This document shows positions 1,863 to 34,389 of a DNA stretch of 64,000 nucleotides, piece by piece; the stretch's first letter is position 1; every line of letters begins with the position of its first letter. Location: NCBI RefSeq assembly GCF_019656335.1, contig NZ_BPLZ01000001.1, positions 62,001-126,000 on the forward strand, in the 5' to 3' direction. This DNA is from Pseudomonas sp. NCCP-436 (GTDB lineage: Bacteria > Pseudomonadota > Gammaproteobacteria > Pseudomonadales > Pseudomonadaceae). The position numbers were made by a program, and so were the translations under genes. The notes beneath the pieces are model-generated. The model worked only from the letters and a program-made list of their open reading frames with translations, ran no database searches and was not told the DNA's origin.

Positions 1863-1890
1863 AGCGGGCTCTCGTATTCGTCAGACAGCA

Positions 1891-1914: not shown

Positions 1915-1940
1915 GCGGGTGGCCGTAAGAGGCTGGCAGG

Positions 1941-3686: not shown

Positions 3687-3688
3687 GA

Positions 3689-4331: not shown

Positions 4332-4344
4332 CTGTCTGGATGAA

Positions 4345-4479
4345 TTAGACAGTCAGACGCTTGCGGCCCTTGGCGCGACGACGCGACAGGACGGCACGAC
4401 CGTTCTTAGTAGCCATGCGAGCACGGAAACCGTGGGTACGAGCGCGCTTGATGGTGCTGGGTTGGAAAGTGCGTTTCAT
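4345..4479 (-). CDS. rpmH: 50S ribosomal protein L34
   Basis: A 44-codon gene. The product begins [19 protein letters not shown] and ends [12 protein letters not shown], the canonical highly basic L34. It is the first gene of the leftward rpmH-rnpA-yidD-yidC operon, and its 5' end borders oriC, divergent from dnaA. The start codon (CAT on the plus strand at 4477-4479) was read directly. Confidence 0.97.
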
Positions 4480-5010
4480 GGTGCTTTACCTGGGTGATCG
4501 ACGAGGGTCGGAATGACCCTGGTTTAAAGAGACCGGCAATTCTAGTGAAAGCCTCGCGGCAGGTCAATTTCCAACCAGCCTTAATCGTCTGGTCCAGGCA
4601 GATAAAAGAAAGATAAGAAGAAAAGCATTTAAAGCTCTTTTTCTATATTTATGTATATAGGCAAGTCAGTCATCTGTGGAAAACCCCTTCAGAGCTTAGA
4701 GCTACCTGGCTTTGCTGATCTGATAAAGCTGTCCGGAACCCGTGTGCTTTCGGTGTGAAGGCTTGTGGCAGCCTGAGGATGAAAAGGATAATTATCCACA
4801 GAATAGGTTATCCCTCACCCTCTCCCCAGTGATTTACCCATGGTTCAGGAAGCCTTATCCACAAGTCTTGTTTGGTGCTGCCTGTATCATGATGGAGTAA
4901 ATAACACCTTGATTTTGCTTGGCGATCTTCGTCTGCTCATGTGGATAACCTCGGCCTGGACCGGTACAATGACGATCGTTCAAGCATCGCCGCCTATATA
5001 GAGGTAGTCA
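4480..5010. other. oriC: chromosomal replication origin oriC (rpmH-dnaA intergenic)
   Basis: Gene-free 531 bp between divergent rpmH and dnaA, the known position of Pseudomonas oriC. Perfect DnaA boxes (TTATCCACA) lie at 4792-4800 and 4855-4863 on the plus strand and at 4940-4948 on the minus strand. A one-mismatch box (TGTGGAAAA) lies at 4675-4683. An AT-rich run at about 4600-4660 left of the boxes is the likely unwinding element. The dnaA promoter must lie in the right half, so DnaA autoregulation through the 4940 box is plausible. Confidence 0.93.
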
Positions 5011-6507: not shown

Positions 6508-6574
6508 TCGCGATCGGGGTGAGGCAAAGACGAGCTCCTTAATTACGAATATCCACGAGGCAAGGGACTAGACC

Positions 6575-7678: not shown

Positions 7679-7746
7679 TTCAACAGCATGGCCGGAGGGG
7701 GATAGATCCTCCGCTTTCAATTTCCTCCTCCGCTACTGTCTCTGTT

Positions 7747-7772
7747 CCGATCCCGCTTTAGAGCGGGATCGG
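7747..7772 (+). terminator. hairpin between dnaN and recF (terminator or attenuator)
   Basis: Perfect 11-bp stem (CCGATCCCGCT at 7747-7757 with its complement at 7762-7772) and a 4-nt loop, followed by only TTT before CCGCC. The stem is strong but the U-tract is short, so partial termination within the dnaA-dnaN-recF-gyrB series is more likely than complete termination. Confidence 0.55.
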
Positions 7773-7792
7773 TTTCCGCCAAAGGTCAACGG

Positions 7793-11321
<3,529 letters not shown>

Positions 11322-11414: not shown

Positions 11415-11574
11415 CTTTGTAGATCAGGCAGTTGGACATAGCCACACAGTCCCGCATAGGTGTGCTGTGTAGTGAAGCTACAAGGAATAGGCGAAAAATC
11501 TCGTTTTGGCGTGGACGAATTCTGGGAGATTCGGCGGGGCGGATGGATCGCCTCAATTCATGCCAATCAAAATA

Positions 11575-11616
11575 GCATCGCCCATCAGTAGTCATTACTG
11601 ATGGGCAGTGCGATGC
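11575..11616. repeat. long hairpin in the gyrB-IS intergenic region
   Basis: A perfect 10-bp inverted repeat (CCCATCAGTA at 11581-11590 and its complement at 11596-11605) with a 5-nt loop, extended outward by GCATCG (11575-11580) pairing with CGATGC (11611-11616) around a small bulge. Read on the minus strand it is followed by CTATTTTG, so it could be a weak terminator for leftward transcription from the IS. The rest of 11415-11725 shows no gene. Confidence 0.5.
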
Positions 11617-11661
11617 GACCCGCTTGCGGCTTCTTTAAAACGAACCGCATGCTGATGTGCC

Positions 11662-11693
11662 TTCCACCCTTCCACCCTTCCACCCTTCCACCC
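11662..11693. repeat. 8-bp tandem repeat, four copies
   Basis: Four exact head-to-tail copies of TTCCACCC, followed by a partial fifth unit (TTC). It sits between the gyrB terminator region and the left end of the IS3-family element. Polymerase slippage could make its copy number variable between strains. Confidence 0.85.
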
Positions 11694-11718
11694 TTCTGGA
11701 GGTGGGCAAAGTTATTTT

Positions 11719-12805
<1,087 letters not shown>

Positions 12806-20039: not shown

Positions 20040-22094
20040 TCAGCCAAGCAGCGAGATGTCTGCCACGCCGAGGAACAGCCCGCGCAGGCGGGCCAGCAGG
20101 GCGTAACGGTTGGCGCGCACGCGGGCGTCCTCGGCGTTGACCAGTACCGCCTCGAAGAAGGCGTCTACCGGGTCGCGCAGATCCGCCAGTCGGGCCAGTG
20201 CCTCACGATACTGGCGTGCGACGGACAGCGGCTGCACGGCCTGGTCGGCCTGCTGAATGGCCGCGTGCAGGGCGAACTCGCTGGGGCTGTCGAAGTAGTG
20301 AGCCTCGACCTGTTCGGCGATACTGCCTTCGGCCTTGCTCAGCAGGTTCGATACACGCTTGTTGGCGGCGGCCAGGGCTTCGGCCTGTGGCAGTGCGCGG
20401 AACGCCTGCACGGCCTGTATGCGCTGGTCGAAGTCCAGTGCCGATACTGGGCTTACCGCGCGTACAGCCTGGTACACGGCGACATCGATGCCCTCGTCTT
20501 CGTAGCGGGCACGCAGGCGGTCGAAGATGAAGTCCAGTACCTGGGGGGCCAGGCCCTGGGCCTTGACCTTGTCGCCGTATTGGCCGATGGCGAAGTTCAC
20601 CGCGGCGACCAGGTCGAGATCCAGGCCCTTCTCGATCAGGATGCGCAGTACGCCGAGAGCAGCACGACGCAGGGCATAGGGATCCTTGGAGCCGGTCGGC
20701 AGCATGCCAATGCCGAAGATGCCGACCAGGGTGTCGAGCTTGTCGGCCACCGCGACTGCAGCACCGGTGAGGGTGCTCGGCAGCTCGGCGCCGGCGCCAC
20801 GCGGCATGTACTGTTCGTTCAACGCCAGGGCGACGTCTTCCGGTTCGCCATCGTTGAGTGCGTAGTAGTAACCGGCGATACCCTGCATTTCTGGGAACTC
20901 GCCGACCATCTCAGTGGCCAGGTCGCATTTGGACAGCAGGCCGGCACGGGCAGCGCGCTGCTCGTCACCACCGACCTGGCTGGCGATGAAACCGGCCAGC
21001 GCGGAGACGCGGCGAGCCTTGTCGAACACCGAGCCAAGCTGGGCCTGGAATACCACGTTGGCCAGGCGCTGGTTGAAGCTTTCCAGACTTTGCTTCTTGT
21101 CCTGTTTGAAGAAGAACTCGGCATCGGTCAGACGTGGACGCACCACCTTCTCGTTGCCGGCGACGATTTGTGCCGGATCCTTGGACTCGACGTTGGCCAC
21201 GGTGATGAAGCGCGGCAGCAGCTTGCCGCCCGCATCGAGCAGGCAGAAGTACTTCTGGTTGTCCTGCATGGTGCTGATCAGCGCTTCCTGCGGAACCTCG
21301 AGGAAGCGTTCCTCGAAGGAGCAGACCAGCGGCACTGGCCACTCGACCAGCGCAGTGACTTCATCGAGTAGTGCCGGCGGCACGATGGCGGTGCCGTTCT
21401 CGGCTGCGGCCAGCTCGTCGACACGGCGGCTGATCAACTCGCGGCGCTCGGCGAAGTCGGCCAGCACGAAGGCGCTGCGCAGATCCTCGACGTAGCTGGC
21501 CGGGCTGCTGATGTGCACCTCGCGGTTGGCATGGAAGCGGTGACCACGAGACACGCGACCGGCCTTCTGTGCGAGGATCTCGCAGTCGACCACGGTGTCG
21601 CCGAACAGCATCACCAGCCACTGGGTCGGACGCACGAACTCGTCGCGGCGTGCGGCCCAGCGCATGCGTTTGGGGATCGGCAGGTCGTTCAGCGAGTCGC
21701 TGACGATGGTCGGCAGCAGGTTCACCGCCGGCTGGCCGGCAATGTGCTGGGCGTAGCGCAGTTTCGGGCCACTGCGGTCGATTTCGCTGATGTCCACGCC
21801 GCACTTGCGGGCGAAGCCCAGCGCGGCCTGGGTCGGGTTGCCGTCAGCGTCGAAGGCGGCCTGGATGGGCGGGCCGTCGAGGTTCATGCTGCGATCCGGC
21901 TGTTGGCTGGCCAGCTGTTCTACCAGTACTGCCAGACGACGCGGCGCGGCATATACGTGAGCGTTCGCATAGTTCAGGCCGGCGGCCTTCAGGCCTTTTT
22001 CAATACCGGCGAGGAAGGCGTCACCGAGAGATTTGAGCGCCTTCGGTGGCAGCTCTTCGGTACCCAGTTCGACCAGGAAATCTTGTGCACTCAT
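20040..22094 (-). CDS. glyS: glycyl-tRNA synthetase beta subunit
   Basis: A 684-residue protein of normal length, starting [20 protein letters not shown]. It includes the conserved [11 protein letters not shown] and PIPKRMRW blocks, an HD-type central domain and the C-terminal anticodon-binding region. It forms the alpha2beta2 enzyme with GlyQ. Its ATG overlaps the glyQ stop by 4 bp (ATGA), so the two are translationally coupled. A 446-codon frame on the opposite strand is a shadow. Confidence 0.97.
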
Positions 22095-23038
22095 GCTTGC
22101 GCCTCCAGCTTGGCCAGTACTTCGTCACGCAGTTCGGGGGTGGCCATGGGGAAGCCGAGTCGGGCGCGGGCCTGCAGGTAGCTCTGCGCCACGGCGCGGG
22201 CCAGGGTGCGCACGCGCAGGATGTACTGCTGGCGCGCGGTCACAGAGATGGCGCGGCGGGCATCCAGCAGGTTGAAGGTGTGCGAGGCCTTGAGCACCAT
22301 CTCGTAGGTTGGCAGCGGCAGCTGCAGTTCGATCAGGCGGTTGGCTTCGCTCTCGTAGAAGTCGAACAGCTCGAACAGCTTCTCGACGTTGGCGTGCTCG
22401 AAGTTGTAGGTGGACTGCTCCACCTCGTTCTGATGGAACACGTCGCCGTAGGTCACGGTGCCGAACGGGCCGTCGGTCCAGATCAGGTCGTAGACCGAAT
22501 CGACGCCCTGCAGGTACATGGCCAGGCGCTCCAGGCCGTAGGTGATCTCGCCGGTCACCGGGTAGCACTCGATGCCGCCAACCTGCTGGAAGTAGGTGAA
22601 CTGGGTGACCTCCATGCCGTTGAGCCAGATTTCCCAGCCCAGCCCCCAGGCGCCGAGGGTCGGCGACTCCCAGTTGTCTTCGACAAAGCGGATGTCATGC
22701 ACTTCCGGATCCAGGCCGATGGCCCTGAGCGAGCCCAGGTACAGCTCCTGGAAGTTTTCCGGATTGGGCTTCAACACCACCTGGAACTGGTAGTAGTGCT
22801 GCAGGCGGTTGGGGTTTTCGCCATAGCGGCCATCGGTCGGACGGCGCGAGGGCTGCACGTAGGCGGCGTTCCAGGTTTCTGGACCGACGGCGCGCAGGAA
22901 GGTGGCGGTATGGAAGGTTCCGGCGCCCACTTCCATGTCATAGGGTTGCAGCACCACGCAGCCCTGCTCGGCCCAGTAGTTCTGCAAGGCCAGGATCAGA
23001 TCCTGGAAGGTGCGCACGGCAGGCTTGTTCTGGCTCAC
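22091..23038 (-). CDS. glyQ: glycyl-tRNA synthetase alpha subunit
   Basis: 315 residues from the GTG at 23038 ([19 protein letters not shown]), preceded by AGGTAA. The open frame continues 26 codons upstream, but the family starts here. Class II aminoacyl-tRNA synthetase core blocks include [19 protein letters not shown] and [19 protein letters not shown]. It supplies the catalytic site for glycine activation. Upstream lies a short divergent promoter region shared with tag. Confidence 0.96.
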
Positions 23039-23208
23039 GAAAAAGTTACCTGTGGAGGCTTGCGAGGAAAGCTGGGGAGTATATCGAAACTCGACGCAGG
23101 CCGCAGGGTACGGCACGTTGGCATCGTCCCATCAGGTGCAATGGCTGTATTTATATCCAGATATATTGTCGTTATAGTCGCCGCATCATCCTGACCGAGG
23201 CTTTTTCC

Positions 23209-23763
23209 ATGCCCCGCTGCTTCTGGTGTACCGACGATCCCCTGTACCAGGCCTATCACGACGAGGAGTGGGGTGTGCCGCAGCGCGATCCGCAGCATCT
23301 GTTCGAGATGCTGTTGCTCGAAGGCGCGCAGGCCGGTCTGTCGTGGATCACCGTGCTGAAGAAGCGCGAACGCTATCGCCAGGTGCTGCACGGTTTCGAC
23401 CCCGAGCATCTGGCGCGGTTGAGCGATGACGAGATCGAGGTGCTGATGCAGGATCCGGGCATCATTCGCAACCGCCTCAAGCTCAGGGCCGTGCGGCAGA
23501 ACGCCCGGGCCTGGCTGCAGCTGGAAGATCCGGCGGGTTTCCTCTGGTCGTTTGTCGGCGGCGCACCAAAGATCAATCATTTCAGCGAACGTAGCCAGGT
23601 GCCGGCGGTAACGGCGGAGGCCGCTGCCATGAGTAAGGCGTTGAAGAGAGCCGGTTTCACCTTTGTTGGGCCAACCATCTGCTATGCCTTCATGCAGGCC
23701 ACCGGCATGGTGATGGATCACACAACCGATTGTGACCGCTATGAGCAACTGAAGGCCGGCTAA
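23209..23763 (+). CDS. tag: DNA-3-methyladenine glycosylase I
   Basis: A 184-residue protein opening MPRCFWCTDDPLYQAYHDEEWG with the Tag zinc-binding Cys and the conserved YHDEEWG motif. GAQAGLSWITVLKKRE and FVGPTICYAFMQATGMVMDH complete the family pattern. The conserved Cys/His residues at both ends bind zinc. It excises 3-methyladenine from DNA. It is divergent from glyQ, and the 170-bp gap contains a small TATATC-CA-GATATA palindrome (23152-23165). Confidence 0.96.
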   Translation: MPRCFWCTDDPLYQAYHDEEWGVPQRDPQHLFEMLLLEGAQAGLSWITVLKKRERYRQVLHGFDPEHLARLSDDEIEVLMQDPGIIRNRLKLRAVRQNARAWLQLEDPAGFLWSFVGGAPKINHFSERSQVPAVTAEAAAMSKALKRAGFTFVGPTICYAFMQATGMVMDHTTDCDRYEQLKAG

Positions 23764-23834
23764 ACGCCGGCTTTACTGACTGGGCTGACCTGCGCCGCTA
23801 CAATTGATGCTTTTCTGAGCGGTAGGAGTCTGTC

Positions 23835-24722
23835 GTGGAAAAACTCAAGGGCGCCTTGGTGGTCGGCTTTTTGCGCCTGTTCGCGTTGCTGCCATGGCCT
23901 GTAGTGCAGGCGCTGGGCAACGCCATCGGCTGGCTGATGTGGAAGCTGCCGAACGGCTCGCGCGAAGTGGTGCGGATCAATTTGAGCAAGTGCTTCCCCG
24001 AGTTGAACGAGGCCGAACTGGACAAGCTGGTTGGACAAAGCCTCAAGGACATCGGCAAGACCCTCACCGAGAGCGCCTGTGCCTGGATCTGGCCGGCGCA
24101 GAAATCGCTCAAGCTGATCCGCGAAGTGGAAGGCCTGGAGGTGCTGCAGCAGGCCCTGGCCTCGGGCAAGGGTGTGGTCGGCATCACCAGTCACCTGGGC
24201 AACTGGGAAGTGCTCAACCACTTCTACTGCAACCAGTGCAAACCGATCATTTTCTATCGCCCGCCCAAGCTCAAGGCGGTCGATGAACTGCTGCAGAAGC
24301 AGCGCGTGCAGATGGGCAACCGCGTTGCGCCATCGACCAAGGAAGGCATCCTCAGCGTCATCAAGGAAGTGCGCAAGGGCGGCGCCGTGGGCATTCCGGC
24401 CGACCCCGAGCCGAGTCGCTCGTCGGGTGTGTTCGTGCCCTTTCTCGGTACCACCGCCCTGACCAGCAAGTTCGTCCCCGGCATGCTCAGCGGTGGCAAG
24501 GCAGTCGGCGTGTTCCTGCATGCGCTGCGCCTGCCGGACGGCAGCGGTTACAAGGTGATTCTCGAGGCGGCGCCCGAGGGCATGTACAGCGATAACGTCG
24601 AGGAAGGCGTGGCGGCCATGAGCGAAGTGGTCTCGCGCTACGTGCGCGCCTACCCGAGCCAGTACATGTGGAGCATGAAGCGCTTCAAGAAGCGTCCGGA
24701 TGGCGAGGCCAAGTGGTACTGA
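23835..24722 (+). CDS. lipid A / lysophospholipid acyltransferase (LpxL/HtrB family)
   Basis: A 295-residue inner-membrane acyltransferase. After an N-terminal hydrophobic helix it has the catalytic HxxxxE motif in ITSHLGNWEVLNHF near residue 118 and the PADPEPSRSSGVFVPF block. The syntenic P. aeruginosa gene encodes a secondary lipid A acyltransferase of the HtrB type, so a role in late acylation of lipid A is likely. It is the last backbone gene before the seven-gene cluster, whose last gene converges on it. Confidence 0.9.
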   Translation: MEKLKGALVVGFLRLFALLPWPVVQALGNAIGWLMWKLPNGSREVVRINLSKCFPELNEAELDKLVGQSLKDIGKTLTESACAWIWPAQKSLKLIREVEGLEVLQQALASGKGVVGITSHLGNWEVLNHFYCNQCKPIIFYRPPKLKAVDELLQKQRVQMGNRVAPSTKEGILSVIKEVRKGGAVGIPADPEPSRSSGVFVPFLGTTALTSKFVPGMLSGGKAVGVFLHALRLPDGSGYKVILEAAPEGMYSDNVEEGVAAMSEVVSRYVRAYPSQYMWSMKRFKKRPDGEAKWY

Positions 24723-24741
24723 AGCGGCTGCGTCAACCGCT

Positions 24742-25773
24742 CTAAAGCTCCAGTTCCAGCCTTTTGCCAGTGAAATCCCGCAATTTGCCGTGCAGCAGCA
24801 ACTGGCGAATCCAGGGGCCGAGCAGATCCTGCCGGCCGTCGAGCATCTGCGCCGGCCCCCAGTGTCCGGCGCAGTCGGCGAAACGCTGATGCTGGGCGCT
24901 GACGGCTTCGAGGATGCGCTTGTCCTGGCGCAGCACCACGCCCAGTAGCGGCCGCATCACAGCCTGCTTCAGCCAGCCGGGTAGCCAGCCGCGGCGGCTG
25001 ACGATGCGCGCGATCACCTGCAACTGACCGGCTTCGGCAGGGATCAGCCAGGCGCTGATCAGCAGCGTGAGCCGGCCGCGGGCGTCGCGGTACTCGATTT
25101 CCGCCAGGCCCGGCAGGCGGAAGCGGCCGAAACTCTCGCCGCGGCTGCCTTCGAACAGGCGCGAGATCAGCCCGGCCTGCTTGCCCTCCTCGCTGTAACG
25201 CGCCTCGATCCCGTCTTCCAGCGCGCGGATATCGGCGATCACCCGCTGGCGCCTGTCGTCGCGGCGAATCCAGCCGGCGTGGACGAAATGGGTATGGAAG
25301 GCGTCGAGGAAGTTCTCCGCCGCCTCCTGCAGGCTGCAACGCACCTGGTCGTGCATCCAGAACTGATCCACATCTTCCTGTACCGCGCCATTGGGATTGG
25401 GCAATGGCGGGGTCGGCAGCATGCTGTCGCGTACCCAGATCAGGCCGTGTGCCTCCAGCGTCTGCAGCGGCTGCAACAGCCTGGTGGTGCTGCCCTGGTC
25501 GAGACTGCCGGGGGCGCGGATGCACTGCCCGGCGCCGTCGAAACGCCAGCCGTGGTAGGGGCACTCGACCGCACCGTCGCGCACGCAACCGGCGCTGAGT
25601 GGCGCGAAGCGGTGCGGACAGCGATCCGGCAATGCCGCCGGGCGGCCGTCACTCTCGCGAAACAGCACCAGCGGCCGGCCATGCAGCACGCGCGCCAGCG
25701 GTCGGCGGGTGCCGAGCTGGTGGCTGGTCGCCAGCGGCCACCAGTACGCCAGAGGCTGCTCGGTCGGATTCAT
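24742..25773 (-). CDS. Rieske [2Fe-2S] non-heme iron oxygenase, last gene of the biosynthetic cluster
   Basis: 343 residues from MNPTEQPLAYWWPLATSHQ, with an AGGAAG ribosome site. The start overlaps the previous stop as ATGA. The Rieske centre has CPHR (near residue 55) and CPYHGW (near residue 75), the CxH...CxxH ligands. The catalytic domain has ENFLDAFHTHFVH, fitting the 2-His-1-carboxylate iron site. The enzyme should hydroxylate, demethylate or cyclise a small molecule with electrons from a reductase that is not encoded here. Substrate unknown; as the last gene, a tailoring role is inferred. Confidence 0.88.
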   Translation of the reverse strand: MNPTEQPLAYWWPLATSHQLGTRRPLARVLHGRPLVLFRESDGRPAALPDRCPHRFAPLSAGCVRDGAVECPYHGWRFDGAGQCIRAPGSLDQGSTTRLLQPLQTLEAHGLIWVRDSMLPTPPLPNPNGAVQEDVDQFWMHDQVRCSLQEAAENFLDAFHTHFVHAGWIRRDDRRQRVIADIRALEDGIEARYSEEGKQAGLISRLFEGSRGESFGRFRLPGLAEIEYRDARGRLTLLISAWLIPAEAGQLQVIARIVSRRGWLPGWLKQAVMRPLLGVVLRQDKRILEAVSAQHQRFADCAGHWGPAQMLDGRQDLLGPWIRQLLLHGKLRDFTGKRLELEL

Positions 25774-26897
25774 AGTTTCAGCTTCCTCATCAGCGGTACG
25801 CCCAGCCCCTGCAGCAGTGCGGCCAGGGTGCGCCAGACCAGGCGCTGGCGCAGTGGCAGGTGGGCGATATGCACCAGGCTGTACTCGATCTGCGGCTGAC
25901 CGCCGCGCAGGCGCTTGAAGTGTGCCGCACCGGAGCTGAAGTTGAGCAGCATGTGGCGTCTGGCCGCCTCCTCCAGGCACAGCCGGGTCAGCTGGCGATA
26001 GAGCCCGGTGCGCTGTGGCAGTGCGGTGTCATAGCCGACGATGGGCGCGCTGAGCACGCTATCGCTGGCGAACCAGCCGGCGACCCCGTCGATGCGCCCG
26101 CAGGCCGCGCGCATTACGCGCAGTTCGAGCCAGCCGTCCCGCTGGCCCTGTTCCAGCCAGGCCGCGCTGTAATGCGGGTTGAGAACGCTGTACTTGTCCA
26201 GATAGAGCAGGTTGTAGAGCGCTTCGATGCGCTCGAACTCGGCGTGGCTGAGGTTTGCTCCGGTCTCCACCCGGTAACCGCTGCGCCGCAGCAGCGTGGC
26301 ATCGAGCCGGCAGTTGTGGTGACGCAGATAGGCGCTGTCGGCGCCGTCGCGGCCATCGAACAGATAGATCTGGCGGCTGGGCACGGCGAGGTAGCCGAGC
26401 GCGTGCAGGCGTTCCAGCAGTACGCCATTGCTAGCCGGGTTGAGCGAGCGAAAGCCGAAGGCATGAGTCGGAAAGCGCTGGCGCAGCAGTGCGGTCAGCT
26501 CCTCCAGTCCTTCGCCCTGCCAGTGCGTCGGGTACAGATTGGTCGACAGCAGCCAGTTGTTGACCTGCACGATGCGGTCGATGCGGGCGCTGCGCAGCAG
26601 CCGTTCGACGCCATCGACCAGCGGCTTGAGCAGTTTCGCCAGCGGCCGGCTGGGCAGACGCTGCAACTCGTCACGGGCATAACCGCTGTAGGCGGTCAGG
26701 GGCGAGACCACGTAGCAGTTGTCGATTCGCTCGCCGCCCTGGTTGATCGATACCGGCATCTGCCAGCGGCCCAGATCGAGCAGTTGCAGTTCGCAGGCAA
26801 GGTTGCCGATACCGCGTTCGGCATGTTCGCGGACGTAACGCGCGGCGGCGCTGTCGAGCTGCGCCAGCTGTGGATCGTCGGCAGTCAGCAGCTTCAT
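25770..26897 (-). CDS. GNAT/FemAB-like acyl- or aminoacyl-transferase of the cluster
   Basis: 375 residues from MKLLTADDPQLAQLDSAAA. The start overlaps the ATP-grasp stop as ATGA. No strict family signature was recognised. The C-terminal half has a GNAT-like layout, and the motif LNFSSGAAHFKRLRGG resembles the substrate/CoA-site end of FemAB/GNAT proteins. It is soluble except for a hydrophobic C-terminal stretch (LVWRTLAALLQGLGVPLM) that may touch the membrane. Tight coupling to its neighbours suggests it transfers an acyl or amino-acyl group in the same pathway. The exact reaction is unknown. Confidence 0.7.
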   Translation of the reverse strand: MKLLTADDPQLAQLDSAAARYVREHAERGIGNLACELQLLDLGRWQMPVSINQGGERIDNCYVVSPLTAYSGYARDELQRLPSRPLAKLLKPLVDGVERLLRSARIDRIVQVNNWLLSTNLYPTHWQGEGLEELTALLRQRFPTHAFGFRSLNPASNGVLLERLHALGYLAVPSRQIYLFDGRDGADSAYLRHHNCRLDATLLRRSGYRVETGANLSHAEFERIEALYNLLYLDKYSVLNPHYSAAWLEQGQRDGWLELRVMRAACGRIDGVAGWFASDSVLSAPIVGYDTALPQRTGLYRQLTRLCLEEAARRHMLLNFSSGAAHFKRLRGGQPQIEYSLVHIAHLPLRQRLVWRTLAALLQGLGVPLMRKLKL

Positions 26898-28048
26898 GAC
26901 CCTGGCGCTCCATCGAGCGGCTGGCCGTCCCATTCGATATCCGCTGTCGAGGCTGCCAGCAGACCGCGTCGGCGCCTCAGCGCACGTACCGCAATCTCGC
27001 CGACACCGAGCAGCTGCGCCGCCAGCGGACCGAGGTCGCCGCCGCGCAGGATCACGTCGCGCGCCGCGCGGTAGTCGGACCAGAAGCGGCGGCTGGCGAG
27101 ATGACGCGGGGCGCCGATCAGCAGCATCGCCAGCGCCACCATGCGCGGCGCCGGGCTCGGCAGCAGCGGTTCGCCGGGCGTGTTCAGGGCGTTCACCAGC
27201 GCCGTGGGCCGGTCGCCGAACAGATGGATGCCGCTGGTTGCGCGCGGGTTGCATTCGAGGACGTGAAAGCGCCCCTGGGCATCGGTGATGAAGTCGAAGC
27301 CGACCTGGCCGGTATAGCCGGTGGCGCGGCCAAAGTCCTCGACGAACGCCTGCACGGCTTGCGGCCGTACCGGCTGGAAATAGATACCCGAGCCGCGCCC
27401 GACGCGGTACAGCGGCCGGTAGCAGGCATGGGCGCGCAACTGTCCGTCGACCAGCAGGCTGAAGCTGCAGTGCTCGTCGCCGGCAACGAAGCGCTGGGCG
27501 ACCCAGGGCTGCTCCGCTGTCGGCCGCAACGCCTCGACGGCGCGCGCATGCGGGCGAATCAGGGTGCGTGAGGCAAAGCGCGAGTAGGCCGGCTTGAACA
27601 CCCAGTCGCCGTGCTCGGCGGCCAGGGCGAGGCAGTCTTCGCGGCTTTGCAGCAGGCGTGTATCGGGCGCTTCCAGCGGCCAGCCGCGGCTCATTTCGGC
27701 GAAACGGCCCTTGTGATGCAGGCGGTGCAGCAGCTCGAAATCGCTGGTCAGCACCCGGCACAACGGCGCCAGTTGCGCCAGGCCATGGGCCAGGTAGAAG
27801 GCTTCCTCGCAGGTCGGCACGATCAGCTCGATGCCGTCCTGGCGAACGCGCCCGGCCAGGGCCTCGATCCAGGCCTGCGGGTTGCTGCGCGGCTCCGGCA
27901 GGCGGACGAAATGGTCCACCGCCCGGCTGGAACGCGCCAGTGGCCAGGCCAGCGAGTCGCCGACGCTGACGGTCCAGCCGCTGGCGGCAAATGCCCGGGC
28001 CCATTCCAGACAGGCCGGCGCCCGCGCGCCGAGGATCAGTACGTGCAT
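26894..28048 (-). CDS. ATP-grasp carboxylate-amine ligase of the cluster
   Basis: 384 residues from MHVLILGARAPACLEWARAF, with a strong GGAGGAAAC ribosome site. The start overlaps the adenylate-enzyme stop by 13 bp. It has an N-terminal pre-ATP-grasp Rossmann-like domain. The ATP-grasp fold includes WVFKPAYSRFASR (phosphate/lysine strand), PWVAQRFVAGDEHCSFSLL and FHVLECNPRATSGIH with the metal-binding E and N. Such enzymes form amide or ester bonds through an acyl phosphate. It could join an amino acid to the acyl product, which is inference. Confidence 0.85.
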   Translation of the reverse strand: MHVLILGARAPACLEWARAFAASGWTVSVGDSLAWPLARSSRAVDHFVRLPEPRSNPQAWIEALAGRVRQDGIELIVPTCEEAFYLAHGLAQLAPLCRVLTSDFELLHRLHHKGRFAEMSRGWPLEAPDTRLLQSREDCLALAAEHGDWVFKPAYSRFASRTLIRPHARAVEALRPTAEQPWVAQRFVAGDEHCSFSLLVDGQLRAHACYRPLYRVGRGSGIYFQPVRPQAVQAFVEDFGRATGYTGQVGFDFITDAQGRFHVLECNPRATSGIHLFGDRPTALVNALNTPGEPLLPSPAPRMVALAMLLIGAPRHLASRRFWSDYRAARDVILRGGDLGPLAAQLLGVGEIAVRALRRRRGLLAASTADIEWDGQPLDGAPGS

Positions 28049-29391
28049 GGCGTTTCCTCCGGGCGGCGCTGCAGCAGCAGGCGGCGGCGCTTGGCGCCGG
28101 GCGCATCCGCCTGCCATTGGCTGACATGCAGCGTTGCAGGCTGCACCTGCTGTTGTTTAAAGAATCTCGTCAGTGCCTGACGCAGGGCCGCCTCCGCCGG
28201 GTCATGCTGCGCCGCCTGCAGTTGCAGCTGCCAGTCCATGCCGTCCTGGCAGATGCGCCACTGCTCCAGCTGCGTGGCGGCGGTGGCGACGGCGCGGCGC
28301 AGCAGGTCGGGATAGAGCGGGCGCAGGCCACTGCCATCCAGCGCCGGCAGCCACAGCACTTCATCGGCGCGGCCCTCGATGGCGGCCAGGGTGCGTTCGG
28401 CGCGGCCGCAGGGGCAGGGCTCGGGCGCCAGTTGCAGGATGTCGTTGAGGCGATAGCGCACGATGATCTGCGTGGTGCGCGAGAAGTCGGTGACCAGCGG
28501 CTGGAAGCGCCGCTGCTGGTTGTCCAGCCACTGCGGCTCGATCAGCAGGTGGCTTTCGTTCAGGTGCAGGTTGCCGTGCTCGCAGCTGTAGCCGAGAAAG
28601 CCTTCGCTGGCCTGGTAAATCTGCGCCGGGCGGCGGCCGAACACCTGCTCGATGCGCCGGGCATCCTCTTCCTCCAGCACCTCGGCCACCGAGACCAGAT
28701 GCCGTGGGGCGATGTTCAGGCGCCCGCTCGCCTGCAGCTCGGCCAGGCCGCGCAGCACCGTGGCCGGGGCCACCAGCACATGCGGCTGCTGACCTTCGAG
28801 TTTGCCCAGCGCGGCGTCCAGGCCGAGCAGCAGGTCATGGAAGACGAAGTCGATACGGCGGCTGGACAGCGTGGTGTACAGCCGGCTGTTGGCGCGCAGG
28901 AAGAAGGCGATGCGCAGCGGCGGCCGCCACGGCAGCAGATGGCCGAGCAGGCCTGTCGGCAAGGTGCGCGCCAGCAGCGTGCCGGCCCAGCGTTCGCGTT
29001 CCTCGCGGCTGACCAGAAAGACCCCGCGATGGCCGGATGTGCCGCTGGAAAGGCCAACGGTCAGTTCGCCCAGCTGCGGGCTGAAATCCCGCGACTGTTC
29101 GGCCTGCAGCGCAACCTCCAGAGCAGGCTGCAGCTCGATGCCGCGGCTGTTGCAGGCGCCGAATTCGCTCATCAGCAGCGCCTTGTCCATCTCCGGCCAG
29201 CGCTCCAGCGGCAGCCCGCGAAAGGCGCGCAGGCGCGGCGCCTGCGGCGCGGTTTCACGCAGAAAGCGCCGCAGCTGGCGCGCCTGCCAGGCCTCCAGCC
29301 GGCGCCGGTCGGAGAAGCGCAGCCACCAGCGGCTGTGGATGAAGCTGCCGGCAACCCGCAGCAGGCTGCGCAGATGCTCAAGGCCGTGCAT
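28036..29391 (-). CDS. adenylate-forming enzyme, F390 synthetase/PaaK-like
   Basis: 451 residues. The nucleotide-binding motif SSGTSGHRGVFL lies near residue 113. Further motifs are YQASEGFLGYSC (acyl-adenylate site), YRLNDIL and the Cys pair CPCGR typical of CapK/PaaK-type ligases. It should activate a carboxylic acid as an acyl-AMP and perhaps pass it to CoA or an amine. The start overlaps the metallo-hydrolase stop by 14 bp. No carrier protein gene is present in the cluster. Confidence 0.85.
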   Translation of the reverse strand: MHGLEHLRSLLRVAGSFIHSRWWLRFSDRRRLEAWQARQLRRFLRETAPQAPRLRAFRGLPLERWPEMDKALLMSEFGACNSRGIELQPALEVALQAEQSRDFSPQLGELTVGLSSGTSGHRGVFLVSREERERWAGTLLARTLPTGLLGHLLPWRPPLRIAFFLRANSRLYTTLSSRRIDFVFHDLLLGLDAALGKLEGQQPHVLVAPATVLRGLAELQASGRLNIAPRHLVSVAEVLEEEDARRIEQVFGRRPAQIYQASEGFLGYSCEHGNLHLNESHLLIEPQWLDNQQRRFQPLVTDFSRTTQIIVRYRLNDILQLAPEPCPCGRAERTLAAIEGRADEVLWLPALDGSGLRPLYPDLLRRAVATAATQLEQWRICQDGMDWQLQLQAAQHDPAEAALRQALTRFFKQQQVQPATLHVSQWQADAPGAKRRRLLLQRRPEETPCTY

Positions 29392-30232
29392 GCAATGCCT
29401 CTGCGGCGATTTCGCAGTGCGACGGTAGGATCAGCAGCGACGGTTCGCGACGGGCCAGCTCGCCGATGGCGGCGAAGGTCTGGCGATAGGTGCGTATCCC
29501 GCTGCTGCTGAAGCACAGGGTCGGGGCCGGTGGCAAGCGGCCTTCGCGGCAGGCAGGCAGCGAATAGCAGGCGTCGGCCACCAGCAGCAGCGGCCCGCCG
29601 CTGGCGTCGGGGATGCACAGGCCGAGCTGGCCGTGGCTGTGGCCGGGCAGCGCGACACCGAGCAGGCTGCCATCGCTGAGCAGGTCGAAGCCTTGCGTGA
29701 AGGGTGCCATCCACGCCGGCAGCGAGCGCTGCGGACAGTCGTCGGCATGTTCCAGGCGCGTGGCGAAATCGTCCGGCAGCATACCCGGCAGCCGTCCCTG
29801 CACGGTGGCGCGCCAGCGTCTGCCGCGCAGTGCCAGCACATGCTCGCTCTCGGTACGCAGGGCGATGATGCGGGCCTGGGGAAAGTCACGCAGACCGGCG
29901 ACATGGTCGCCATGAAAATGCGAGACGATCACTGCGCCGATATCCTCGCGGCGGATGCCGCGTGCGGCGAGCTGCGCCGACAGGCACTCGTGGGCAGGGA
30001 GATGCACCGGTAACAGGCTGCCGTAGAGGCGCTCGGGAAACACGGCGGTGGCATCGAGAAAGTGCTGCGCATAGCCGGTGTCGTAGAGCATCCAGCCGCG
30101 CGTCGGGTGGCGCAGCAGGGCGCAGTAGGAAGGAAAGTCCACCTGATGCAGCCCGGCTCCGCGCGCAGCCATGCAGGCCAGGTGGCGGCAACTGCCGACT
30201 CGCAGCCAGGCGACGTCGATCGATGCGCTCAT
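29378..30232 (-). CDS. metallo-beta-lactamase-fold hydrolase of the cluster
   Basis: 284 residues from MSASIDVAWLRVGSCRHL. The start overlaps the reductase stop as ATGA. The metal motif SHFHGDHVAGL (HxHxDH) lies near residue 112, with later ligands in LPGHSHGQLG, VADACYS and LPSHCEI. That set is like the lactonase/glyoxalase branch of the superfamily. In context it could hydrolyse a thioester or lactone intermediate, or protect against a lactone. The substrate is not known. Confidence 0.86.
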   Translation of the reverse strand: MSASIDVAWLRVGSCRHLACMAARGAGLHQVDFPSYCALLRHPTRGWMLYDTGYAQHFLDATAVFPERLYGSLLPVHLPAHECLSAQLAARGIRREDIGAVIVSHFHGDHVAGLRDFPQARIIALRTESEHVLALRGRRWRATVQGRLPGMLPDDFATRLEHADDCPQRSLPAWMAPFTQGFDLLSDGSLLGVALPGHSHGQLGLCIPDASGGPLLLVADACYSLPACREGRLPPAPTLCFSSSGIRTYRQTFAAIGELARREPSLLILPSHCEIAAEALHARP

Positions 30233-31227
30233 CGGCTGTGCTCCAGCCACCAGGCTGCGTGGCGGCGAATGCCCTCTTCGAGATCGACACCGGGCTGCCA
30301 GCCCAGCTCGCGGCGAATCGCCGAGGTATCCAGCGTCTGGCTGAAGGCGAGTACGCCGGCGCTGTAGCGGGTCAGCAGCGGCTCCCTGCCGCCGCTCAGA
30401 TGCGCGCCGGCTTCGAACAGGCGGGCGACGCCGGACACCAGCGGCCAGGGCAGCCGGCGGGTGTGCAGCGGCAGTGCGAAGGCCGTGGCGACGCGCTCCA
30501 GCAGATGGTCGAGGCGGATCGCTTGGCCATTGCTGACGTTGTACAGGTTGTAGCGACGCGGCAAGGGGCGGGTGAGGCCGAGCCAGACGGCATCGACCAG
30601 GTTGTCGATATAGGTCAGGTCGAGTTCGGCCCGCCCGCCGCGCATCAGCGGAATCGCACCACGGCGCATCACACGCAGCATGCGCGGCATCAGCGTGGCG
30701 TCCCATGGGCCGAACACGGCGCGCGGACGCAGCACCACGGTCTGCGCGATATCGGCTTCCCGCAGCAGCGTCTCGGCCATGCCCTTGGTTTGCGCATATC
30801 GGTTTACCGGGGGCGGCAGGGGATCGTCCTCGCGTACGCCGAGGCGGTCCTGAAAGGCGAAGTACAGGCTCGGTGTCGAGAGATGCACCAGGCGCTCGAT
30901 GCCATGCGAGCGGCAGGCGTGAATGACCTCCTCGGTCGAGGCGACGTTGGCGCGCCGAAACGCCTCGGCGCTGCCCCATGGCGCCGACAGCGCGGCGCAG
31001 TGCACCAGGGCATCGGCGCCTGCGGCGGCTTCGCTCAATGCCGCCTGCGCCTGCGGCGTGCCGTGTTCGACGGGCAGGAAGCGCATCGCGCCAGGGGCGT
31101 GGGCCAGGACTTCATCGGCGGCCTCGCGGCTGCGGCCGCAGAACACCACCTCGCAACCCTCGGCAGCCAGGCGCCAGGCGATATGCCGTCCGACGAAGCC
31201 GGTGCCTCCGGTGAGCAGAACCTTCAT
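30229..31227 (-). CDS. NAD(P)-dependent reductase/epimerase, OleD-like extended SDR
   Basis: 332 residues. The nucleotide-binding TGGTGFVGRHIA is at the N-terminus. The active-site YAQTKGMAE (YxxxK) lies near residue 155 after the serine-containing HLSTPSLYF. The sequence is of the 3-beta-HSD/OleD type, which reduces beta-keto acids to beta-hydroxy acids. Its position directly after a ketoacyl synthase (ATGA overlap at 31224-31227) fits reduction of that enzyme's product. Confidence 0.88.
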   Translation of the reverse strand: MKVLLTGGTGFVGRHIAWRLAAEGCEVVFCGRSREAADEVLAHAPGAMRFLPVEHGTPQAQAALSEAAAGADALVHCAALSAPWGSAEAFRRANVASTEEVIHACRSHGIERLVHLSTPSLYFAFQDRLGVREDDPLPPPVNRYAQTKGMAETLLREADIAQTVVLRPRAVFGPWDATLMPRMLRVMRRGAIPLMRGGRAELDLTYIDNLVDAVWLGLTRPLPRRYNLYNVSNGQAIRLDHLLERVATAFALPLHTRRLPWPLVSGVARLFEAGAHLSGGREPLLTRYSAGVLAFSQTLDTSAIRRELGWQPGVDLEEGIRRHAAWWLEHSR

Positions 31228-32243
31228 TGCAGCTCCAGCAGCATGCCGCCCAGCGAAAGCCCGGCGCCGGTGCCGAGTAGCAGCACGCGCTGGCCGGCGT
31301 CGATACGACCGTCGCGCAGGCCGATGTCGAGGGCGGTCGGCAGCGAGGCGGCCACCTGATTGCCGTACTCGGCAAAAATGTCAATCACCTGCTCGCTGGC
31401 AAAACCCAGGCGTTTGCGCAGGTGTTCCATCGCCAGGTGACTGGCCTGGTGCGGAACCACCCGGTCGATTTGCACCTGCTGCAAGCCCGCCTCATCGAGC
31501 AGTGATTGCAGAAATGCCGGCAGATGAGTCGAGGCCAGGCGGAATACCGCCTTGCCCTGCATGCTGAAGCGGCTCAGTGCGGCGAAGTTCTGCTCGCCGC
31601 GCGACGGATGATGACGTGAGCCGCCCGCGGCGATCTGGCACAGCGTGGCGCCCTCGGAGTAGGTGCGCAGCTGCGCCGCGAGAATGTTCAGCCTCAGCCC
31701 GTCGCCATCGTGCCCGAGCACCACAGCGGCGGCGCCGTCGCCGAAGATGGCGGCGCTGTGCAGCTGCTGCCAGTCCAGGCCGCAGGAGGCGATATCGGCG
31801 CATACCAGCAGCACCCGGCGATAACGCCCGGCTGCCAGCGCCCAGGAAATCTGATCCAGGGCAGCGATGAAGCCCAGGCAGCTGGCGTTGATGTCGAAGG
31901 CGGGAATGCCGCTTGCGCCCAGGCCAAGTTCGCGGTGGATGAGCGCGGCATTGCAGGGCATGCCCTGATCCATGGTGCCGCTGGCGGCGATCACGCAGTC
32001 GAGCTCCCCGGCAGTCAGCCCGGCGGCCTGCAGCGCCTTCTGCGCGGCCTGCGAGGCAAGGGCGGCGGCAGTGTCTGCGGCAGATGCCACGGCGCGGCTG
32101 CGTACGCCGCTCAGGCGTTCGGTGCTGCCGTCGGGCAGGCCGAGAGAACGGTCGATTTCGCTGCTCTTCAGGCGCTGCGCTGGCAGGGCATGGCCGCTAC
32201 CCAGCAGTGTCAGGATGCGGCGCGGTAAGGAGTCGACTGGCAT
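31224..32243 (-). CDS. 3-oxoacyl-ACP synthase III-like (KAS III/OleA-type) condensing enzyme, first gene of the cluster
   Basis: About 339 residues from MPVDSLPRRILTLLGSGHA. The frame is open to an ATG at 32282, and neither start has a clear ribosome site. The catalytic triad is complete: Cys in DINASCLGFIAAL, His in VPHQASHLAM and Asn in YGNQVAASLPTAL. It should condense two acyl thioesters or an acyl with a malonyl unit. It leads a seven-gene operon, unlike housekeeping fabH, and has an OleD-like neighbour, so a dedicated secondary-metabolite or long-chain ketone role is inferred. Confidence 0.88.
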   Translation of the reverse strand: MPVDSLPRRILTLLGSGHALPAQRLKSSEIDRSLGLPDGSTERLSGVRSRAVASAADTAAALASQAAQKALQAAGLTAGELDCVIAASGTMDQGMPCNAALIHRELGLGASGIPAFDINASCLGFIAALDQISWALAAGRYRRVLLVCADIASCGLDWQQLHSAAIFGDGAAAVVLGHDGDGLRLNILAAQLRTYSEGATLCQIAAGGSRHHPSRGEQNFAALSRFSMQGKAVFRLASTHLPAFLQSLLDEAGLQQVQIDRVVPHQASHLAMEHLRKRLGFASEQVIDIFAEYGNQVAASLPTALDIGLRDGRIDAGQRVLLLGTGAGLSLGGMLLELQ

Positions 32244-32539
32244 GCACAGTCCATTGTTCAGGCATCGGTTGTAGCCCGCCATGATGAACCAGCGGGGCGT
32301 TCAAGCCTACTCCCCATGCAGCCTTGCGCTGTTTTTTCGTGAGCCAGGGCGCTATTGCTCCCGGAGCGCTCGTCAGTATCCGGCGGCGGCCGCCATTCGG
32401 CGCTTTGTGTGTGCGTGCCCGGGGTAGCAAACTGCTCTGGTCTCAGCGCAGCACGAGGGCTCGCCTGAGCTTTTTGCTGGGCGCCTGCGCGCTAATGCGT
32501 TATTAAGGGCGACATCGCTTGTCCATTCATGGAGCCGTC

Positions 32540-32806
32540 ATGTCGAACCAGCGTCAGCAGGTGCGTACCCCGATGAAGTGTCGGATCAAGATCAGCCATC
32601 CGAATTTCGGTGAACTGCTGGCGCAGACACGCGACCTGTCCGACAGCGGCGTCTATGTGAAGCACCCGGATATGGCGGCTCTGTCGATTGGCGCGGAAGT
32701 GACCGGCCAGGTGCAGGACCTGCCCTTTCCCGCGCCGGTACTGAAGATGGAAGTGATGCGCGTGGACGCCGAAGGGGCTGGCCTGCGGTTTATCGGCGAA
32801 GCCTGA
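32540..32806 (+). CDS. PilZ-domain protein
   Basis: 88 residues from MSNQRQQVRTPMKCRIKIS. A PilZ-type beta-barrel is indicated by RDLSDSGVYVKHPD (the D/NxSxxG motif) near residue 38, and an arginine (RQQVRTP) sits near the N-terminus. PilZ domains bind cyclic di-GMP. The syntenic backbone gene in P. aeruginosa follows lpxL directly, so the seven-gene cluster has been inserted between them here. Confidence 0.88.
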   Translation: MSNQRQQVRTPMKCRIKISHPNFGELLAQTRDLSDSGVYVKHPDMAALSIGAEVTGQVQDLPFPAPVLKMEVMRVDAEGAGLRFIGEA

Positions 32807-32905
32807 ACGAGGCTGCCCAACCGGCAGGCGCAATGAATGCCGGATGACGCTCCAGCAGGCGCTTCAGCCGTGATTTTTTGCCGGCTTCGGCGCCGCTGAA
32901 GTGCA

Positions 32906-33730
32906 TCAGTGCGCTTCGTTGACCGCGCTGAGAAAGGCCTGCGTGCGCTCCTGTTGCGGGTTGCCGAACAGCTGCTCCGGGGTGCCCTGTTCGTGAATGC
33001 AGCCCTGGTGGAAGAAGCACACACGGTCGGCGAACTCGCGGGCGAAGCCCATCTGGTGAGTGACCATCAGCATGGTCAGGTTGTGTTCGCTGCCCAGGCG
33101 GCGGATCACGTTGAGCACCTCGCCGCACAGTTCGGGGTCGAGTGCCGAAGTCACCTCGTCGAACAGCATCACCTTGGGCCGCATGGCCAGGGCGCGGGCG
33201 ATGGCCACGCGTTGCTGCTGGCCGCCCGATAGCTGCGAGGGATAGTGGCCGAGCTTCTCGCCCAGACCGACCATCGCCAGCAGGTCCTCGGCGCGTTCCG
33301 TGGCTTCCTTCTTGCTCATGCCCAGCACCTGCACCGGAGCCTCGATGACGTTCTGCAGCGCGCTCATGTGCGGGAACAGGTTGAAGCTCTGGAACACCAT
33401 GCCGATCTTGCCGCGCACCTTGCGCTGGTGGCTGGCGCTGGCCGGCACCAGGCGGCCAGCGCGCGCGGGCATGTGGGTCAGCGGCTCGCCGTCGACCATG
33501 ATCAGGCCTTCGTCGATGGTCTCCAGGGTCATCAGTGCGCGCAGCAGGGTGGACTTGCCCGAGCCGCTGGGGCCGATGATGGCGACCTTCTCGCCCTCGT
33601 TCACCTCGAGGTTGAGGTTGTTCAGGCAGGTGAAGTTGCCGTAACGCTTGGTCACGTCGGTGAAGCGGACGATGGGCTGGGTCATGGTCGAATTCTCTGC
33701 CGCGGCGGGCGAATGGAGAAAGGCGGTCAT
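32906..33730 (-). CDS. ehuA: ectoine/hydroxyectoine ABC transporter ATPase EhuA
   Basis: 274 residues from the ATG at 33730, which overlaps the ehuD stop (ATGA) and follows a strong GGAGGTAA ribosome site. A second ATG 15 codons in (MTQPIVRFTDVTKRYG) is where many homologues begin. Walker A is GPSGSGKST, the signature is LSGGQQQRVAIARAL, and Walker B is VMLFDEVTSALD. It energises polar-amino-acid-type uptake. Assignment to ectoine rests on the flanking catabolic genes. Confidence 0.9.
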   Translation of the reverse strand: MTAFLHSPAAAENSTMTQPIVRFTDVTKRYGNFTCLNNLNLEVNEGEKVAIIGPSGSGKSTLLRALMTLETIDEGLIMVDGEPLTHMPARAGRLVPASASHQRKVRGKIGMVFQSFNLFPHMSALQNVIEAPVQVLGMSKKEATERAEDLLAMVGLGEKLGHYPSQLSGGQQQRVAIARALAMRPKVMLFDEVTSALDPELCGEVLNVIRRLGSEHNLTMLMVTHQMGFAREFADRVCFFHQGCIHEQGTPEQLFGNPQQERTQAFLSAVNEAH

Positions 33731-34389
33731 CGTGGGGTTACCTCCAGGCGGTCTTCCATGCGCCGCACGCACCAGGCCAGAGCCAGGCTGAGGGCAAGGA
33801 AGAACAGGCCAACCATGGTGATGGGTTCAAGGTAGCGGAAACTCTCGGAGCCGATGTTCTTGGCCTGCTGCATGATCTCGACCACGGTGATGGCCGACAG
33901 CACCGGCGTGTCCTTGAGCATCGCCACCAGGTAGTTGCCCAGTGCCGGCAGGATCGGGCGCAGCGCCTGCGGCAGGATGATGTTGCGGTAGGCGGTCAGC
34001 GGCGCCATGTTCAGCGCCGTCACCGCCTCCCACTGGCCGCGCGGCACGGCGTCGAGGCCGGCGCGGTACACCTCGGCGGTGTAGCAGGCGTAGTGCAGGG
34101 CAATGCCGAGGATGCCCGCCTGCAGCGCGGTGAGGTTCAGTCCGTAGTTGGGGAACACGTAGAACAGGAAGTACACCTGGATCAGCAGTGGCGTGCTGCG
34201 GATGAACTCGATCAGCCCGGCCACCGGCCAGGACAGCCACAGCTGGTTGCTGCGCCGGGCGATGGCCAGCAGCAGGCCGACGACGATGGCGATGGCGAAG
34301 CCGGCGAAGGTGATCAGCAGGGTATTGAGCGAGGCCTTGAGCAGGTCCGGGAGGATGCTCAGGGCGAAATCCCAGTCGAAGAAGTTCAT
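33727..34389 (-). CDS. ehuD: ectoine/hydroxyectoine ABC transporter permease EhuD
   Basis: A 220-residue HisM-type permease with about five membrane helices and the EAA loop around REAVTALNMAPL-like residues (here QWEAVTALNMAPLTAYRN). FFDWDFALSILPDLLKASL precedes the first helix. Its start overlaps the ehuC stop as ATGA, and its stop overlaps ehuA. It forms the membrane channel with EhuC. Confidence 0.9.
   Translation of the reverse strand: MNFFDWDFALSILPDLLKASLNTLLITFAGFAIAIVVGLLLAIARRSNQLWLSWPVAGLIEFIRSTPLLIQVYFLFYVFPNYGLNLTALQAGILGIALHYACYTAEVYRAGLDAVPRGQWEAVTALNMAPLTAYRNIILPQALRPILPALGNYLVAMLKDTPVLSAITVVEIMQQAKNIGSESFRYLEPITMVGLFFLALSLALAWCVRRMEDRLEVTPR

Follow-up and report, generated by a model that had tools for sequence, protein, structure and literature searches.

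The stretch of Pseudomonas sp. NCCP-436 analysed in this study (contig NZ_BPLZ01000001.1, positions 62,001 to 126,000; 64,000 nucleotides, hereafter the window) carries seven complete open reading frames (ORFs) on the minus strand at 24742–32243, transcribed in the order KAS-OLED-MBL-ADEN-GRASP-FEMAB-RIESKE, with successive overlaps of 4, 4, 14, 13, 4, and 4 bp. KAS, OLED, MBL, and ADEN are referred to as the core, and GRASP, FEMAB, and RIESKE as the tailoring module of the window. The features of the operon are as follows.

31224..32243, minus strand: KAS, core gene 1, KAS III ketosynthase of 339 aa on the MxnB/CorB side of the FabH family; C-H-N triad intact, Met at the OleA Glu position.
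30229..31227, minus strand: OLED, core gene 2, OleD-like NAD(P)-dependent reductase of 332 aa; top NCBIfam match OleD.
29378..30232, minus strand: MBL, core gene 3, metallo-beta-lactamase-fold hydrolase of 284 aa, nearest to N-acylhomoserine lactone (AHL) lactonases; HxHxDH metal motif invariant.
28036..29391, minus strand: ADEN, core gene 4, adenylate-forming enzyme of family TIGR02304, PaaK/F390-like, 451 aa; above the family cut-off.
26894..28048, minus strand: GRASP, module gene, ATP-grasp ligase of 384 aa, called by Pfam and a structure model.
25770..26897, minus strand: FEMAB, module gene, Fem/MprF-type tandem-GNAT transferase of 375 aa, perhaps aminoacyl-tRNA dependent, called on a structure model.
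24742..25773, minus strand: RIESKE, module gene, Rieske oxygenase with a VanA_C domain, DdmC/SxtT-like, 343 aa, called by its motifs.
32244..32518: intergenic region separating the KAS gene from the divergent pilZ gene, by its coordinates the presumed promoter region of the operon.

The overlapping minus-strand operon, proposed earlier in a sequence-only reading of this DNA, is therefore real, and the intact active-site motifs and family assignments given there were upheld as well: the motifs of KAS, MBL, RIESKE, and GRASP are invariant in alignments (one MBL ligand, H272, excepted), the families of all seven proteins hold in profile searches, and the folds of GRASP and FEMAB were recovered on structure models. 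As judged by ratios of nonsynonymous to synonymous substitution (dN/dS) of 0.10–0.24 against three near relatives, all seven genes are under purifying selection. Their GC content is 0.66–0.71, compared with 0.61–0.655 in six neighbouring genes, in a host assembly of 3.68 Mb and 43 contigs. A scan of 24600–32700 returned no sigma-70 consensus promoter and four terminator sites against a shuffle mean of 2.8, so that a terminator reading was rejected; no RNA element matched at gathering scores in 22000–34000, and no tRNA gene was found in the window.

The same reading had described the set as inserted between an lpxL-like and a pilZ gene, and comparison with relatives agrees with this. The borders of the insertion are as follows.

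23835..24722, plus strand: lpxL-like acyltransferase, left border.
32519..32806, plus strand: PilZ-domain gene, right border.

When 29 relatives were searched with the pilZ protein, 11 matched, the own genome included, and 18 gave no match at the cut-off used. In all nine other same-genus pilZ loci (L108–L116) lpxL neighbours pilZ, with a largest gap of about 260 bp; the tenth other match, from another family (L117), has no lpxL. The cluster occupies the lpxL/pilZ site in the window and in three other loci (L067, L069, and L011), and the other clusters of the window's type in the genus have no lpxL/pilZ within 8 kb of ADEN on the stretch examined.

The seven genes fall into two units, a core of four genes and a module that can be exchanged, a division absent from the sequence-only reading. 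To define the units, 57 loci with an ADEN scoring above 200 bits on its own profile were collected from plasmid records, named genome contigs, and genome samples; the window is not counted, and L013 and L077 are almost certainly one contig (their KAS are identical, as is their length of 522,340), so that the 57 loci are probably 56. All four core genes were found on the examined stretch in 55 of the 57 loci, which span five phyla, and in 50 of the first 53 when an 8-kb limit was set. Special rows are L015, a 3.5-kb contig, L023, which has no KAS, and L006, whose KAS is truncated where the stretch ends. The layout of the core differs between two Pseudomonas plasmids, each about 0.9 Mb in size: it is scattered in L006 (pBASL58) and divergent but compact in L007. 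As the loci were chosen by their ADEN match, this set cannot display cores lacking ADEN; that side is covered by a reverse survey of plasmids, in which an ADEN lay nearby in 20 of the 23 records with a close KAS (E ≤ 1e-40), the other three being Paracoccus TOH (KAS alone), P. amygdali pMPPla107, and a Priestia plasmid. In the negative control of 21 loci that carry a distant PaaK only (L028–L048, several of them short contigs), neither KAS nor MBL was found, and a weak OLED-type match occurred in two (34 and 58 bits).

Next to this constant core, the module varies. An ATP-grasp module like that of the window is present in 28 of the 57 loci, 22 of which also carry FEMAB and RIESKE. A module of PAP2, fatty-acid hydroxylase, and fatty-acid desaturase, assigned by Pfam in the E. 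coli set and by profile relatives elsewhere, occurs in 16 loci, E. coli among them. A glycosyltransferase module (PF13506, Glyco_transf_21, or a relative) was found in four, by Pfam in L008 and L016, by similarity in L025, and by weak similarity at a contig end in L022, and two loci (L120 and L121) combine DUF3419 with FEMAB. The ATP-grasp and PAP2-type modules stand together in one run in L014. PF13506 includes ceramide glucosyltransferases, and DUF3419 includes BtaA, the maker of betaine-lipid head groups.

Exchange of the module was seen directly between E. coli (L005) and Enterobacter (L016). Positions 1–9039 of the former and 5–9036 of the latter are colinear at 76% identity; the colinear part takes in the nar genes and nearly the whole core, stopping some 200 bp short of the ADEN end. 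Past this break, E. coli carries PAP2, hydroxylase, and desaturase genes, and Enterobacter another reductase and two glycosyltransferases, one of family-21 type and one weakly recognised, before the alignment resumes at 12051 and 12637, respectively. Thus the two share the site and the core and differ in the module. Such an exchange of cassettes at one chromosomal site is a natural experiment in which the genes for the backbone can be told apart from those for head groups.

The distribution of the cluster is patchy, as for a trait gained and lost. A TIGR02304 gene above the cut-off was present in 18 of the 298 genomes of the genus sample (own included); 13 of these, the window included, show the gene order of the window (the contig of L066 ends within RIESKE), and five have another module. 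The sequence-only reading had suggested searching the proteins together for conserved synteny, and the gene order indeed recurs in 12 other genomes of this sample. In the class sample, 3 of 369 genomes (own included) matched at 1e-40, two of them above the cut-off, and in the phylum sample 10 of 398 (own included) matched the ADEN-type profile at 1e-60. Outside the phylum, the core was found in Paenibacillus, Pontibacillus, Fusobacterium, Nocardioides, and a metagenome-assembled genome of the Ktedonobacterales. Of 5,426 complete E. coli genomes, 672 carry the E. coli-type cluster, 671 of them with at least 80% of the query; among them are the widely used laboratory and reference strains Nissle 1917 and ATCC 25922. 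In ABU 83972, narI and the tyrosine tRNAs flank the core together with its PAP2, hydroxylase, and desaturase genes (L005 5155–12036; L049). A single scan of viral contigs yielded 18 pattern matches and no relative, and carriage by viruses was rejected on this basis.

The ketosynthase was then compared with characterised KAS III enzymes, because the sequence-only reading had likened the first two enzymes to the OleA/OleD pair of olefin synthesis. Its C122/H265/N295 triad is invariant in a 20-row alignment, and a profile built from the 20 KAS scored MxnB at 331 bits, CorB at 315, E. coli FabH at 237, and OleA at 117. Two ole loci served as yardsticks, L083, with KAS, OleC, and OleD above the cut-offs of PRK09258, NF045786, and NF042422, and L084, with KAS above the PRK09258 cut-off and OleD above its own. 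On PRK09258 (cut-off 285) the window KAS reached 126.6 bits, compared with 463 and 467 for the ole-locus KAS, and on the KAS III model PRK07204 (NF005541) it reached 383.6 bits, below the cut-off of 402. The position of the catalytic Glu of OleA and PpyS is occupied by Leu in 18, Met in 15, and Ile in 8 of the 41 cluster KAS (Met in the window), by Val in MxnB and CorB, by Phe in FabH, and by Glu in both ole-locus KAS. In the parts of PMC4578411 available, OleA is described to use E117, the E105A variant of PpyS to have lost photopyrone production, and MxnB and CorB to carry V94 and to lie within the FabH clade. The surrounding motif is Q-x-[LMI]-P in the cluster KAS, Q-A-V-P in MxnB and CorB, and H-A-F-P in E. 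coli FabH, and a G-T motif near the C-terminus, common with MxnB and CorB, is found in 40 of the 41 cluster KAS.

Consistently, a 46-row tree, of the kind that the sequence-only reading had proposed, set the ole-locus KAS apart (100/100) and grouped the 41 cluster KAS, that of the window among them, with MxnB and CorB, away from OleA. The fork joining the cluster KAS to MxnB/CorB has a support of 89/92, is not starred, and bears long branches; basal support in the tree is weak, several branches are long, and MxnB is possibly drawn to a long row. The tree covers rows of at least 250 residues other than L018, L049, and L001, and its L078 and L079 belong to other genera (G479 and G662). Thus, the KAS has the C-H-N triad, no Glu, and Gln plus a hydrophobic residue at the diagnostic positions, as in MxnB/CorB-type enzymes, and an OleA identity is excluded by the PRK09258 score, the missing Glu, and the tree position. 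These results indicated that the proposed OleA/OleD likeness stands for the reductase, which is 33% identical to a true OleD, and fails at the ketosynthase, whose profile gave 117 bits on OleA and which has no Glu.

The other core enzymes are related to known families to varying degrees. The best NCBIfam match of OLED is the OleD model NF042422, at 184.1 bits (cut-off 580), and the 33% identity to the OleD of L083 extends over 332 columns, so that by sequence OLED is a genuine OleD relative. The metal ligands of MBL, H105-x-H107-x-D109-H110/H198/D220, are invariant in 23 rows, while the further ligand H272 is not; the protein is nearest to N-acylhomoserine lactonases and 4-pyridoxolactonase, although its scores on the AHL lactonase models AttM and AiiA (68.7 and 50.1 bits) are below the cut-offs of 390 and 375. 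ADEN scored 394.4 bits on TIGR02304 (aden_form_hyp, ‘F390 synthetase-related’), above the cut-off of 251.9. Among solved structures, its closest relatives are phenylacetate-CoA ligases, at no more than 63 bits, and it matched no Pfam family. An OleC identity was rejected, as ADEN has no similarity to the OleC of L083 (BLASTP E 0.17; that OleC scored 1008 bits against a cut-off of 900), and its E value against the OleC of L085, which is below the OleC cut-off, was 1.4. No alpha/beta-hydrolase is present among the seven proteins, which rejects an OleB in the operon, so the absence of OleB and of a classical OleC was noted correctly. Nor was a polyketide synthase (PKS), nonribosomal peptide synthetase (NRPS), carrier protein, or transporter found among the seven genes. 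Genes annotated for coenzyme F390 synthetase are listed for P. aeruginosa ATCC 27853 and in a fatty-acid cluster of Desulfotalea, each in a passage from a paper.

In the tailoring module, GRASP scored 23.8 bits on PF02655 (cut-off 23.2) and 400.6 bits on PRK06849 (NF005315, ‘hypothetical protein’; cut-off 406, not reached), and its motif E265-C-N267-P-R269 is invariant in 10 rows. The model of GRASP, with a mean predicted local distance difference test (pLDDT) value of 88.5, has an ATP-grasp fold, matching 2pn1 at Z 24.1, glycinamide ribonucleotide (GAR) synthetases and PurK at about 21–24, and PylC at 21.7. FEMAB scored 22.7 bits on PF13480 (cut-off 22), and its search by sequence against the PDB gave chance-level matches only. 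On its model (pLDDT 84.5) it has a tandem-GNAT fold of the Fem/MprF type, matching the aminoacyl-tRNA-dependent peptide synthase Sbb17 at Z 16.8, FemX at 16.2, and MprF at 15.1; the matches to Sbb17, FemX, FemA, and MprF have Z of 15–16.8 over 254–287 residues. RIESKE carries C52-x-H54, C71-x2-H74, and D157-x2-H160-x4-H165, invariant in 7 of 7 rows, scored 75.6 bits on PF00355, also has a VanA_C domain, and resembles dicamba demethylase and SxtT.

Taken together, the operon is probably, in our moderately confident judgement, one form of a modular lipid-type system, in which the core makes and activates a beta-hydroxy acyl backbone and the module adds head groups and an oxidation. From the enzyme families we infer the substrates, steps, and product as follows. 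KAS would form a C–C bond between two activated acyl units to give a beta-keto acyl chain, whose keto group OLED would reduce to a hydroxyl; MBL would free the acid from its thioester, or open a lactone, and ADEN would adenylate the freed acid for transfer to a nucleophile. GRASP would then join an amino acid, or another amine or acid, to the backbone, FEMAB would add an aminoacyl group, probably from aminoacyl-tRNA, and RIESKE would hydroxylate the product, which in the window would be an aminoacylated, hydroxylated lipid. A fatty-acyl-derived product with an amide or ester linkage and an oxidation step, as suggested earlier, is accordingly probable from the enzyme families. A lipid is favoured because the modules elsewhere consist mostly of lipid or head-group enzymes (PAP2, FA_hydroxylase, FA_desaturase, Glyco_transf_21, DUF3419, and the Fem/MprF fold); in known systems, these mostly modify a lipid at its hydroxyl or in its chain.

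Several observations weigh against this modular lipid-type system. A hydropathy scan found no transmembrane-like stretch in six of the seven window proteins and a marginal one in KAS, so that a soluble small molecule would fit as well as a membrane lipid. The OleD-like, MBL, and ANL families are catalytically broad, and the order of steps could thus differ. The fold of FEMAB is also like that of acetyl-CoA-dependent tandem GNATs (VipF and mycothiol synthase, Z 13–15). The core is not always complete: the megaplasmid pMPPla107 of P. amygdali (L125 5794–9044) has KAS, OLED, and MBL with no ADEN within 6 kb, and L023 has the core without KAS. Six of the 57 loci have none of the recognised modules, suggesting that the core may suffice by itself or act together with unrecognised partners. 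Further, GRASP and RIESKE occur without a Fem-like gene in L079, L105, and L106, GRASP is the module alone in L004 and L006, and two Deinococcus plasmids (L118 6769–9017; L122 6754–9011) carry an ATP-grasp and a Fem-like gene with the core absent from the stretch examined. The window's module is therefore itself composite, and the Deinococcus-type pair may be a functional unit of its own.

A more specific form of the modular lipid system, which we put forward tentatively and hold to be somewhat unlikely, is that the core makes a two-tailed backbone, a corynomycolate-like 2-alkyl-3-hydroxy acid with neither glycerol nor a sphingoid base, coupled to interchangeable head-group cassettes. These cassettes would be aminoacyl, glycosyl, S-adenosylmethionine (SAM)-derived (DUF3419), or of the phosphatase/hydroxylase/desaturase type, in at least five phyla and in about 1 in 8 complete E. 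coli genomes. The suggestion follows from the kinship of KAS to ketosynthases that join two chains, together with the head-group modules; if true, it would represent a new class of lipid backbone.

The remaining explanations keep the same enzymes and change the product. In an Ole-like pathway with parts replaced, a 2-alkyl-3-hydroxy acid would be closed to a beta-lactone by ADEN in place of OleC, MBL would act on the lactone in place of OleB, and the module would decorate the product. The OleD kinship of the reductase and the lactonase kinship of MBL fit this scheme, and adenylate-forming enzymes such as ADEN belong to the wider superfamily of OleC. However, the OleA Glu is missing in 41 of 41 cluster KAS, ADEN lacks similarity to true OleC, and MBL lactonases hydrolyse rather than decarboxylate, which leaves the scheme unlikely. 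We give a similarly low probability to a soluble signal or antibiotic of the pyrone or butenolide type, for which KAS would join a beta-keto chain to another acyl chain and the ring would be reduced, opened, and amidated by the remaining enzymes. The proximity of KAS to MxnB/CorB, with the common Q-x-[hydrophobic]-P and, in 40 of 41, G-T motifs, speaks for such a product, as do the lactonase-like MBL and the alpha-pyrone formation by MxnB reported in the available part of PMC5724707. Against it, the seven genes include none of the PKS, NRPS, carrier protein, or transporter genes named above, and the other modules are made of lipid-type enzymes.

Least probable to us, and improbable in its own right, is an ordinary decarboxylative KAS III that elongates a starter with malonyl-ACP to a single-chain beta-hydroxy acid, with an N-acyl amino acid (lipoamino acid) as the resulting surfactant or signal. 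KAS does lie on the FabH side of the tree, and an ATP-grasp enzyme of the PylC or L-amino-acid-ligase type fits amide formation; yet the H-A-F-P of FabH is replaced by Q-x-[LMI]-P, as it is by Q-A-V-P in MxnB/CorB, and the glycosyltransferase and DUF3419 modules are less naturally explained.

Among described systems, the OleABCD olefin/beta-lactone pathway (oleABCD and oleACD clusters are described in the available part of PMC7064751) likewise comprises a ketosynthase, an OleD-type reductase, an adenylate-forming enzyme, and a hydrolase, with fatty acyl substrates that are known for Ole and presumed here. It differs in that the window KAS lacks Glu117, ADEN is not OleC, the hydrolase has a metallo-beta-lactamase fold in contrast to the alpha/beta fold of OleB, and modules are added. 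The interconnecting ketosynthases MxnB and CorB of myxopyronin and corallopyronin are the nearest solved relatives of KAS, sharing the C-H-N triad and the Gln plus hydrophobic residue where OleA has Tyr plus Glu, whereas the window KAS has no polyketide assembly line and is followed by a reductase, a hydrolase, and an adenylate enzyme. FEMAB has the fold of the aminoacyl-tRNA-dependent transferases of the MprF, Fem, and streptothricin type, at low identity (9–18% in structural alignments). The bacterial ceramide pathway (Spt, CerR, CerS, AasR, and AcpR; the part of PMC11324152 available describes five ceramide genes of Caulobacter) is alike by analogy only, in that a keto group is reduced, an acyl/amide step takes place, and an acid is activated on a lipid backbone. 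A known ceramide-type pathway was rejected, since the seven proteins include no Spt or other transferase dependent on pyridoxal phosphate (PLP) and the C–C bond would be made by a KAS III; this comparison did not extend to the CerR and CerS sequences.

ADEN is a member of TIGR02304, for which no characterised member was found in the open-access literature searched. No described pathway for the cluster was found there either, a body of literature that mostly leaves out subscription papers and preprints; within it, the earlier remark that this combination matches no described pathway holds. The enzyme families are known, and it is their arrangement that was not found described. The repeated occurrence of the four core enzymes side by side in at least five phyla, with no described product found, suggests that a branch of bacterial acyl or lipid metabolism is still unexplored.

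Some further features were observed at related loci. On the Priestia plasmid (L126 5779–9407), the related KAS gene has genes for an acyl carrier protein and an MMPL transporter as neighbours. Three clusters lacking the window's module carry an ORF next to the core that gave no Pfam match, of 215 aa in L008 (5211–5858), 530 aa in L007 (9265–10857), and 590 aa in L078 (9694–11466). In the Paraburkholderia cluster L002, a Rieske-type sequence at 11501–12626, not annotated, extends over two overlapping ORFs as if frameshifted. Directly past the cluster of one genus genome (L068 12989–14440) lies an ORF with YopE and ADP-ribosyltransferase exoenzyme domains.

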